IMG/VR virus record: IMGVR_UViG_3300035438_000334
Location: 1 to 47,036 of that record
Length of the DNA: 47,036 bases
Source: a virus
Reading direction: 5' to 3' (one strand)
Shown: positions 4,217 to 46,593 of the stretch, piece by piece
Layout: each line of letters opens with the position of its first letter
How positions within the stretch are numbered: position 1 is the stretch's first letter
Made by a program: the position numbers and the translations under genes
The notes under the pieces: model-generated
What the model saw: only the letters and a program-made list of their open reading frames with translations
Databases searched by the model: none
What the model was told of the DNA's origin: nothing

Positions 4217-4237
4217 TAAATAGGATTTAGATCTGCT

Positions 4238-4276
4238 AAAAGCCCCCTAAATTAATTTTTGGGGGGCTTTTCATTT
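4238..4276 (+). terminator. Intrinsic terminator after the capsid gene
   Basis: A 10-bp perfect stem, AAAAGCCCCC (4238-4247) with GGGGGCTTTT (4262-4271), encloses an AT-rich loop and is followed by a T-rich tract. It lies 20 bases after the capsid stop and separates the capsid unit from the next promoter. Confidence 0.92.
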
Positions 4277-4287
4277 TAATTTAGTAA

Positions 4288-4296
4288 TGCTATAAT
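4288..4296 (+). promoter_or_regulatory. Extended -10 promoter
   Basis: TGC-TATAAT directly downstream of the capsid terminator. No good -35 is visible, so recognition would depend on the extended -10. The predicted start near 4303 leaves a short leader with GGAGA before the ATG at 4324. Confidence 0.65.
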
Positions 4297-4323
4297 TGTT
4301 TAGAGTAGAAATAGGAGATATAT

Positions 4324-8256: not shown

Positions 8257-8280
8257 TAGATTTAATTTATTAGCTATTCA

Positions 8281-8310
8281 GTAAAACCCCCAATTTATTG
8301 GGGGTTTTAC
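8281..8310 (+). terminator. Strong terminator after the major tail gene
   Basis: A perfect 13-bp stem, GTAAAACCCCCAA (8281-8293) with TTGGGGGTTTTAC (8298-8310), with a four-base loop. The symmetric A/T flanks could work in both directions, but all genes here read on the + strand. Confidence 0.93.
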
Positions 8311-8312
8311 GT

Positions 8313-8341
8313 TTGTATTAGTATATTCTTTTTAGTATAAT
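8313..8341 (+). promoter_or_regulatory. Promoter of the tail chaperone-tape measure operon
   Basis: TTGTAT (8313-8318), a 17-base spacer and TATAAT (8336-8341) lie just after the terminator. The predicted start is near 8348, and the chaperone ribosome site AGGAGG follows at 8359. Confidence 0.7.
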
Positions 8342-8371
8342 GATTATGAATAGATCCTAGGAGGACCTAAA

Positions 8372-27224: not shown

Positions 27225-27248
27225 CAGTCTGGCTAAATATGCTACAAT
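27221..27248 (+). promoter_or_regulatory. Strong promoter at the start of the replication region
   Basis: Consensus TTGACA (27221-27226), a 16-base spacer and TACAAT (27243-27248) preceded by TGC. It overlaps the stop of the lectin-like gene. The predicted start is near 27255, only about eight bases before a terminator-like hairpin. Confidence 0.82.
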
Positions 27249-27262
27249 TTAGATAATATCAA

Positions 27263-27287
27263 GGTCACGACTCCGTGACCCTTTTTT
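27263..27287 (+). terminator. Intrinsic terminator or attenuator in the leader
   Basis: GGTCACG (27263-27269) pairs with CGTGACC (27274-27280) around a four-base loop, followed by C and six T. It can end the late tail transcript. Because a strong promoter fires just upstream, it may also attenuate the replication operon. A ribosome site (AGGGAAG) follows at about 27292. Confidence 0.85.
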
Positions 27288-27302
27288 ACGCAGGGAAGTT
27301 AA

Positions 27303-45286: not shown

Positions 45287-45292
45287 AAATTA

Positions 45293-45328
45293 TGATATAA
45301 TTATATTAGGATGCCCATTAGGGGTCCT
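45293..45328 (+). promoter_or_regulatory. Promoter with a hairpin starting at its transcription start
   Basis: TGA-TATAAT (45293-45301) is followed about seven bases later by a hairpin: AGGAT (45308-45312) with GTCCT (45324-45328), and CCC (45314-45316) with GGG (45321-45323), one base bulged. Ribosome site AGGAGG follows near 45352. Confidence 0.65.
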
Positions 45329-45362
45329 ATAAATTAACTTATTCGCTTGAAGGAGGAATAAT

Positions 45363-45782
45363 ATGGTAACAACATATACATGGGATCTTTTCAAGGATCC
45401 CTTTTTTATTGGCTTTAATCGTGAAATTGAAAGAATGGCTAACGTGCACAATGCTGCATCACGCCAATCATATCCACCATACGATGTACTAAAGCTAGAC
45501 GAAGATACATATCAGGTATCTCTTGCGGTTGCAGGATTCACAAAAGAAGACATTAGTCTATCTGTAGATAACGGAACATTGGTTATTTCTGGAGAAATTA
45601 CCGAGATCACCGACGCAGAAGTTTTGCATAAAGGAATCGCTGCACGTAAATTCACAAGGTCTTTTGCTCTAGGAGAGTACATGGAAGTATCCAGTGCATC
45701 TCTTAAGGACGGAATGCTTAATATTAATATTATTAGGCTGGTTCCTGAAGACAAGAAGCCAAAGACTATCAAGATCAAATAA
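45363..45782 (+). CDS. Hsp20/alpha-crystallin small heat-shock protein
   Basis: A 139-residue chaperone. The N-terminal arm ('TWDLFKDPFFIGF') resembles the 'WDPF' start of this family. The alpha-crystallin core runs from about residue 35 ('YPPYDVLKLDEDTYQVSLAVAGFTKEDISLSVDNG') to 125, including 'LKDGMLNINI', with an I-x-I-like end ('KTIKIK'). It prevents aggregation of unfolded proteins and is a known auxiliary gene in some phages. It has its own promoter, a hairpin leader and a terminator-like hairpin inside codons 7-15, so its expression may be conditional. Confidence 0.88.
   Translation: MVTTYTWDLFKDPFFIGFNREIERMANVHNAASRQSYPPYDVLKLDEDTYQVSLAVAGFTKEDISLSVDNGTLVISGEITEITDAEVLHKGIAARKFTRSFALGEYMEVSSASLKDGMLNINIIRLVPEDKKPKTIKIK
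45382..45407 (+). terminator. Intrinsic terminator inside the first codons of Hsp20
   Basis: GGGATCTT (45382-45389) pairs with AGGATCCC (45394-45401) around a four-base loop, followed by six T. The stem is eight pairs including one G-T. It lies about 80 bases after the promoter and inside codons 7-15. It may work as an attenuator that moving ribosomes suppress. Confidence 0.82.
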
Positions 45783-45786
45783 ATAG

Positions 45787-45792
45787 TATAAT
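45787..45792 (+). promoter_or_regulatory. -10 promoter driving a structured leader or small RNA
   Basis: TATAAT directly after the Hsp20 stop, without a clear -35. The predicted start is near 45799, essentially at the first base-paired position of the structure from 45797. Confidence 0.55.
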
Positions 45793-45796
45793 AGAT

Positions 45797-45868
45797 ATCT
45801 GCACCCCGTCACTGGGGAGTCGCAGATTTGGGCATCGCTGCCCAGGATAGTCGGGGGAGACAGCGACT
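45797..45868 (+). ncRNA. Candidate structured RNA with alternative folds
   Basis: No good open frame lies here. Three hairpins can form: ATCTGC (45797-45802) with GCAGAT (45822-45827) enclosing CCCC/GGGG; TGGGCA (45829-45834) with TGCCCA (45839-45844); and AGTCG (45849-45853) with CGACT (45864-45868). Competing pairings exist: TCGCTG (45835-45840) with CAGCGA (45861-45866), and AGTCGC (45818-45823) with GCGACT (45863-45868). Together they look like a switch or a compact small RNA in front of the nuclease gene. It matches no tRNA, and no known RNA class was recognised. Confidence 0.6.
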
Positions 45869-45877
45869 TTAAATAAC

Positions 45878-45886
45878 TGGTATAGT
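45878..45886 (+). promoter_or_regulatory. Second extended -10 promoter before the nuclease
   Basis: TGG-TATAGT lies just after the structured region. It would allow transcription of the nuclease with or without the structured leader. No -35 is evident. Confidence 0.45.
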
Positions 45887-45933
45887 CCTGAGTATGACTG
45901 TAAAAAACTGCTCATTTAAATTAAGGGAGAGAT

Positions 45934-46341
45934 ATGTTTGAATACAGAGTTAAGCAAGTACTAAAAGTAGTAGACGGAGATACAATTGACGTTGACATCG
46001 ATCTTGGGTTCAGCATATCATACTCTCAAAGATTAAGATTGGCTGGTATTGATACACCAGAATCTAGAACAACAGATAAGTTTGAAAAAACATTAGGGTT
46101 AGAGTCAAAAGAGTATCTTAAGTCTAAGCTAAAAGATTCTAAAGACATTGTTGTAAAAACAGAAAAGCCAGATAGCTCGGAAAAGTATGGCAGAATACTT
46201 GGATGGGTTTATGTTAATGGAGACACAAAGTCTCTTAATGAGCAGATGATTGAAGATGGATATGCGTGGGGATACATGGGGGAAACTAAAGTCAAAGACT
46301 TCTCGGCTTTAGCTGAAAAGAGAAAAAATAGCGGTAAGTAA
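45934..46341 (+). CDS. Thermonuclease-like (SNase) endonuclease
   Basis: A 135-residue nuclease of the staphylococcal thermonuclease fold. It has 'VLKVVDGDTIDVDIDLGF' with Asp residues for Ca2+, 'RLRLAGIDTPESR' with the key Arg and Glu, and 'EKYGRILGWVYVNG' with the second Arg. No signal peptide is visible, so it should act in the cytoplasm. A role in degrading host or competing DNA is plausible. Ribosome site AAGGGAGA precedes the ATG. Confidence 0.88.
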   Translation: MFEYRVKQVLKVVDGDTIDVDIDLGFSISYSQRLRLAGIDTPESRTTDKFEKTLGLESKEYLKSKLKDSKDIVVKTEKPDSSEKYGRILGWVYVNGDTKSLNEQMIEDGYAWGYMGETKVKDFSALAEKRKNSGK

Positions 46342-46526: not shown

Positions 46527-46541
46527 TTTAAACTAACATTC

Positions 46542-46550
46542 TGCTATAAT
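46542..46550 (+). promoter_or_regulatory. Extended -10 promoter of the secreted-protein gene
   Basis: TGC-TATAAT without a clear -35. The predicted start near 46557 is at the base of a long hairpin. Confidence 0.65.
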
Positions 46551-46552
46551 AT

Positions 46553-46582
46553 CTAAGTAAGCAAAAGTATTGCATTACTTAG
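46553..46582 (+). promoter_or_regulatory. Leader hairpin overlapping the ribosome binding site
   Basis: CTAAGTAAGCAA (46553-46564) pairs with TTGC (46570-46573), then, after one bulged base, TTACTTAG (46575-46582). The right arm reaches into the AGGAG at 46581-46585, so folding could mask the ribosome site. The first bases lie before the predicted start, so the true start decides how much of the stem is made. Confidence 0.62.
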
Positions 46583-46593
46583 GAGATACCTAG

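Follow-up and report, generated by a model that had tools for sequence, protein, structure and literature searches.

A structured RNA of modular design lies in the gap between the hsp20 and nuclease genes of a phage, and its last module, D, is by the comparative evidence a real H-type pseudoknot. Sequence comparison supports the modular architecture of this unit, its register to a -10-like box, the helices of modules A and D, and the placing of D at gene 3' ends. The window (the whole stretch of DNA analysed) is a 47,036-base IMG/VR virus fragment with a GC content of 38%. It carries phage genes for portal, capsid, tape measure, DnaB, PolIII-alpha, RecA and large terminase, and an SSB-family gene was also found. 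The order in the gap is TAGTATAAT, six bases, modules A, C, B and D, and an AU-rich stretch with a ribosome-binding site (Table 1).

Table 1. Features of the hsp20-nuclease region, in window coordinates
Feature	Coordinates	Strand	Description
hsp20 gene	45363-45782	+	phrog_432, E 3.8e-36; Pfam HSP20; conserved neighbour upstream of the RNA unit
Noncoding gap hsp20/nuclease	45783-45933		151 bases
Extended -10-like box	45784-45792	+	TAGTATAAT, just 3' of the hsp20 stop codon; TATAAT at 45787-45792
Module A, putative 5'-terminal hairpin	45797-45827	+	CUGCA-YYYY-nUnAnn-RRRR-AGUC-GCAG; invariant internal loop A/AGUC
Module C, hairpin	45828-45845	+	GGGCA-UCGC-UGCCC, then AGGAU
Module B	45849-45879	+	(A)GUCG-GGGGAGA-CAG-CGAC(U)-UUAAAUAA-CUG; stem and proposed 3-bp pseudoknot CAG/CUG, A-rich loop
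Module D, H-type pseudoknot	45882-45913	+	P1 45882-45887/45896-45901; P2 45890-45894/45909-45913
Loops of module D	45888-45889; 45895; 45902-45908		L1 (CU); L2; A-rich L3
AU-rich spacer and ribosome-binding site	45914-45933	+	AAGGGAG, before the nuclease start codon
SNase-type nuclease gene	45934-46341	+	phrog_452, E 8.4e-49; Pfam SNase; variable downstream neighbour

Searches of the window found no tRNA or tmRNA and no further copies of the RNA elements. Ordinary intrinsic terminators (GC hairpin and T-run) were present at 4217-4323, 8257-8371 and 27225-27302 and none behind hsp20, so the phage also uses standard terminators. At 46527-46589 another promoter-like TATAAT leads directly into a strong hairpin (TAAGTAAGC..GCATTACTTA), the 3' arm of which adjoins GGAGAT before the next gene. 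The 45 window ORFs scanned included a cobalamin adenosyltransferase (PF01923, E 2.9e-50).

Module order and helices of the unit

Protein-guided searches gave 159 loci, and pattern searches for A and B added many more. In close relatives the gap was homologous and highly structured, not filled with unrelated sequence, and the modules occurred in the combinations A-C-D, A-C-B-D, A-B-D, C-B-D, C-D and D alone, with B-D and B-E as further combinations. Module order was constant over 156 distinct units (A, C, B, then D or E), and the first module stood exactly 6 nt 3' of TATAAT in 149 of the 156 (121/127 A-first and 28/29 B-first units); such unit counts are not independent events, since close relatives share features by descent. 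This fixed register would place the first module at the expected transcription start, in agreement with the earlier note, where the RNA begins at the transcription start predicted from a -10 box. The modular architecture is well supported by comparison of the loci.

Upstream, an hsp20 gene lay within 300 nt of A in 119/132 occurrences, of B in 81/104 and of E in 11/13. Downstream, the neighbour varied and could be the nuclease, a Zn-ribbon ORF, a new promoter, a convergent gene or a tRNA. The unit stays with hsp20 while the gene behind it changes or is absent, and this speaks against a dedicated cis-regulator of the nuclease, as had been suggested from the sequence. Reading the unit as a phage small RNA, the other suggestion made there, is possible, and a leader of whichever gene follows is equally possible.

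In B-E units, module E, in which a U-rich stretch comes after a long stem, replaces D at the same 3' position. E is about 85 nt long, has a long closing stem (e.g. GCCTCACGTAGG..CCTACGTGAGGC) and a conserved GGATGGATTAGTTACC..GTGCTTGAAT, and was seen downstream of hsp20 in L040, L047, L066, L485, L502, L507 and other loci. It gave no match against Rfam and seems to be a small RNA family in its own right that can take the place of D.

The earlier note had described a structured RNA in the 72 bases 45797-45868. Its stems are indeed in the sequence at ATCTGC/GCAGAT (45797-45802/45822-45827), CCCC/GGGG (45804-45807/45814-45817), GGGCA/TGCCC (45830-45834/45839-45843) and GTCG/CGAC (45850-45853/45864-45867); a real structured RNA is present, although its boundaries need correcting, since those 72 bases take in A, C and B and end before D, to which the element extends. 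The folding energy was marginal (MFE -29.4 kcal/mol, z -1.89, with 5/200 shuffles as good), and the comparative evidence for structure is much stronger than energy alone. Compensatory changes in homologues were looked for and found, clearly so for A and D. In 42 distinct A sequences, 92.4% of cells were paired with 28 double-sided changes (0/500 shuffles), and the covariation score was 0.237 compared with 0.156 for the best slid register. The inner stem of A swaps CG and UA pairs, and its outer flank pairs as AU, GC, UA or CG. By inspection, and given here without counts, the C stem was rewritten in relatives with pairing kept (UUCGGGU/ACCCGAA, AUGGGU/ACCCAU and UUGAGC/GCUCAA). The loop of B was invariant in 67/75, and its fifth stem pair varied between TA, AT, CG and GC. 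The CAG/CUG pseudoknot proposed for B is invariant and for that reason unproven. The strong invariance of the A internal loop and of the GGGGAGA loop of B suggests recognition by something, beyond a requirement for stability alone.

Two competing 6-bp pairings had also been reported, and both exist as strings, but they were unsupported as conserved mutually exclusive folds. The C-B pairing (45835-45840/45861-45866) kept 6, 5, 5 and 4 of its 6 pairs in four distinct C variants, with an invariant B strand and no compensation. The sixth pair of the A-B pairing (45818-45823/45863-45868) was present in only 21/54 units with A and B, and A, B and C were each found without the proposed partner. We rejected a two-state switch based on these pairings, as no two conserved mutually exclusive folds were found.

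Pseudoknot D and its genomic setting

Covariation in D was measured in loci retrieved without using D, with a motif that fixed only the loops. Both P1 and P2 were fully paired in 68/208 distinct strings, and the remainder had about one pair each, as by chance. At the commonest spacing, both helices were fully paired in 50/73 strings and nearly so in 66/73. From these 66 nearly paired strings 48 sequences were drawn, which slightly favours the resulting figure of 97% of cells paired; they held 61 double changes (0/500 shuffles), and the covariation score was 0.466 compared with at most 0.113 in slid registers. The conserved loops were CU, N and nnAAAC.

An IMG/VR-wide compensation test was then applied to P2, with no pairing requirement on P1. 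Wild-type P2 (CCTGAGCATG..AACTGCTC) and compensated P2 (CCTGGACATG..AACTGTCC) each matched at least 120 stretches, compared with 10 stretches for mismatched P2 (CCTGGACATG..AACTGCTC) and 4 for the reversed control pattern. P1 was paired in 82/102 compensated-P2 matches and in 1/8 distinct mismatched ones, and the mismatched matches mostly resembled coding sequence. As P1 and P2 each show covariation in loci that were retrieved independently of D, we regard D as a real H-type pseudoknot; the compensation test is decisive.

The genomic context was examined in 130 D occurrences with full flanks, taken from IMG/VR loci that the D pattern had retrieved. In 122/130 a same-strand ORF ended no more than 150 nt 5' of D, and in 74/130 no more than 25 nt; the opposite-strand controls gave 39 and 8. 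The distance from stop to D was never below 4 nt and most often 5, with a peak at 5-9 nt and an abrupt cut-off below 4-5 nt; D was also found far from stop codons. It lay between convergent neighbours in 13 cases and between divergent ones in 4, which are small numbers. The genes before D were unrelated to one another: DUF932 accounted for 17/92 and Hsp20 for 7/92, while RNR, SSB, helicase, methyltransferase, rIIB and capsid had 1-3 cases each of the 92. D is associated with gene 3' ends, on the coding strand behind a stop codon, across unrelated genes and apparently unrelated phages, and in most phages it stands alone, without A, B or C.

The D pattern was present in 39/46 whole records, 30 of which had been chosen because of D, with up to five copies per record and zero for the reversed control; it was found in 10/10 records chosen by hsp20 or nuclease similarity. 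Among six named phages chosen for distant similarity there was no exact match, and under looser criteria Synechococcus phage S-EIV1 (KJ410740; 29147-29167 and 42990-43010 minus strand) was the only one with D-like elements, all of which had a P2 of 4 bp. When D-bearing loci were compared with named phages by BLAST, few relatives were returned. In GTDB genomes 94 stretches matched the D pattern, and P1 was paired in 44/96 GTDB matches compared with 113/135 in viruses. In at least three matches (L306, L325 and L364) the spacer of a CRISPR-like array in a cellular genome contained D, which fits a phage origin and suggests that D is targeted repeatedly, as DNA or as RNA. One phage contig with D also carried a pistol ribozyme match (RF02679, 49.4 bits, L241:5749-5818, minus strand).

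Possible functions of the unit

We tentatively favour a promoter-driven modular phage leader or small RNA whose 5' hairpin and 3' pseudoknot would protect RNA ends, while holding this reading with somewhat less than even confidence. A modular structured RNA of about 115 nt would arise from a promoter of its own located at the end of hsp20, start at +1 with hairpin A, continue through C and B, and close with pseudoknot D. Hairpin A at the 5' terminus would shield the RNA from 5'-end-dependent decay. D, stabilised by the A-rich L3, would act as a roadblock to 3'-to-5' exonucleases or as an insulator between cistrons. The hsp20 mRNA and the short RNA or leader would thereby keep defined, stable ends, and the downstream nuclease would gain a structured leader as a by-product. 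Given how little the genes upstream of D have in common, a general role at the RNA level is a better fit than a single regulon. The taking of D's place by E, with its long stem and U-rich tail, is consistent with a 3'-end role.

Some observations count against end protection. A same-strand ORF start lay within 40 nt 3' of D in 74/130 (19 in the opposite-strand control), and D could thus be acting on the next gene. Within the hsp20 group, a ribosome-binding site and ORF usually followed the unit (100/127 D-containing units), the position expected of a leader. The loops of A and B are strongly invariant, and neither a consistent U-tract nor a consistent cleavage site was found after D. We also considered D as an intrinsic terminator (a GC hairpin with a U-run) and rejected it, as no consistent U-run lies behind it.

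The hsp20 leader (45287-45362) likewise begins with a conserved hairpin, placed a few nt 3' of its TATAAT (AGGATGCCCATTAGGGGTCCT; GTACCTGCCAAAAGGGGGTAC and GTGCACCTGCCAAATGGGGGTGCAC in relatives), with the stem rewritten and pairing kept. A conserved CTTATTCGCTTGAAGGAGGAATAA follows the hairpin, and its TTATTC is complementary to a GAATAA around the Shine-Dalgarno sequence. This leader may act as an RNA thermometer for the phage hsp20.

Among the rival readings the strongest is that of a protein operator like the one of T4 gene 32; we think it unlikely. D and the AU-rich stretch would be bound by a phage RNA-binding protein, such as the phage SSB, which would nucleate on D, spread over the ribosome-binding site and repress the nuclease and other genes. 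The topology is that of T4 gene 32, an H-type pseudoknot upstream of an AU-rich, UUAA-containing ribosome-binding site (PMC3014915); the leader in the window reads ..UGCUC-AUUUAAAUUAAGGGAG. The window has its SSB-family gene, and the invariant loops suggest a binding partner. However, D lies 3' of very diverse genes, no same-strand ORF start was found within 60 nt 3' of D in 53/130, many phages lack an AU-rich sequence after D, and SSB accounts for only 2-3/92 upstream genes.

We give a similarly low probability to A-C-B-D as a trans-acting phage small RNA (a decoy, sponge or anti-defence RNA) whose invariant modules would bind host factors, with the genes after the unit placed there by chance of genome compaction. 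The fixed promoter and 5' register and the near-invariant sequences of A and B agree with such an RNA, as does the new promoter, convergent gene or tRNA after the unit in L495, L508, L513, L410, L439 and L522. However, the ORFs with plausible ribosome-binding sites close behind most D-containing units speak against it, no target or terminator was recognisable, and D mostly occurs without the other modules.

A ligand- or temperature-sensing riboswitch that controls the nuclease by alternative folds, as the earlier note proposed, is improbable. Invariant loops in A and B, and a CUCCUU..AAGGAG complement around the ribosome-binding site in some leaders (L090), would suit a riboswitch, but no Rfam riboswitch matched and the modules are freely gained and lost. 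The changing neighbours and the unsupported alternative pairings argue against any gene-specific riboswitch or regulator of the nuclease.

Recoding pseudoknots typically lie 5-9 nt from the stop codon, which is also the peak spacing of D. Stop-codon readthrough stimulated by D is nevertheless very improbable, as D also occurs far from stops and the stops before it were mainly UAA (41/56, compared with 363/729 in the background) with UGA depleted. We looked at D-linked stops for a leaky stop and an open in-frame extension and rejected this candidate: the extension had a median of 7 codons, as did the background, and an immediate second stop followed in 7/56.

For end protection, a wider version is conceivable and to our mind rather doubtful, in which D would guard mRNA 3' ends phage-wide, independently of the host and across many host phyla, and would form a two-end capping kit with the +1 modules. 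D occurs in well over a hundred phage contigs, with several copies in some, and may be an overlooked, widespread phage means of finishing or protecting RNAs. If D controls RNA stability or translation, it would give phages a general means of gene control that does not depend on the host.

Comparison with known systems

The element had been described as an RNA of no recognised family, and covariance-model searches bore this out. Rfam at gathering thresholds gave no relevant match, STAXI included, for the window and 21 other loci, and no known riboswitch or sRNA of Rfam matched the window. With lax thresholds on three stretches nothing relevant appeared, the hits to rhtB, astro_FSE and PK-IAV being weak and far below the cut-offs. 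D is absent from Rfam 15. A literature search on the D sequence and on phage pseudoknot families gave no description, within a mostly open literature that left the 224-motif catalogue (10.1093/nar/gkx699) outside its scope. Phage mRNAs with H-type pseudoknots have been known before; one that recurs phage-wide behind stop codons is new as far as could be checked.

In T4, the gene 32 pseudoknot lies 67 nt ahead of the start of the single gene for which it serves as 5' operator (PMC3014915). D resembles the gene 32 operators of T4, T2 and RB69 as a compact H-type pseudoknot in phage mRNA, as its covariation indicates, and in the window an AU-rich stretch likewise runs up to the ribosome-binding site. 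It differs in adjoining many unrelated genes, mainly behind stop codons, and in its conserved loops; the window D is not in the leader of the phage's own SSB gene and lies between hsp20 and the SNase gene.

STAXI (RF01728) forms 2-3 tandem repeats in Enterobacteriales (PMC2864571). It shares with D the character of a bacterial or mobile-element pseudoknot motif near DNA-manipulating genes, whereas D is mostly single and falls outside the STAXI family, with no Rfam match. The L17 downstream element (RF01708) is tied to one ribosomal protein gene and is not of phage origin (PMC2864571). Like D, it is a structured element in 3' UTRs, often with no gene behind; unlike it, D is a phage element without attachment to a single gene.

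Exonuclease-resistant RNAs of eukaryotic RNA viruses block 5'-to-3' exonucleases by a ring fold. D would resemble them in proposed function only, as a viral RNA fold that blocks an exonuclease, and would differ as a plain H-type knot acting mainly on 3'-to-5' enzymes. In the wider, phage-wide version of end protection, D would be a DNA-phage counterpart of these exonuclease-resistant viral RNAs.
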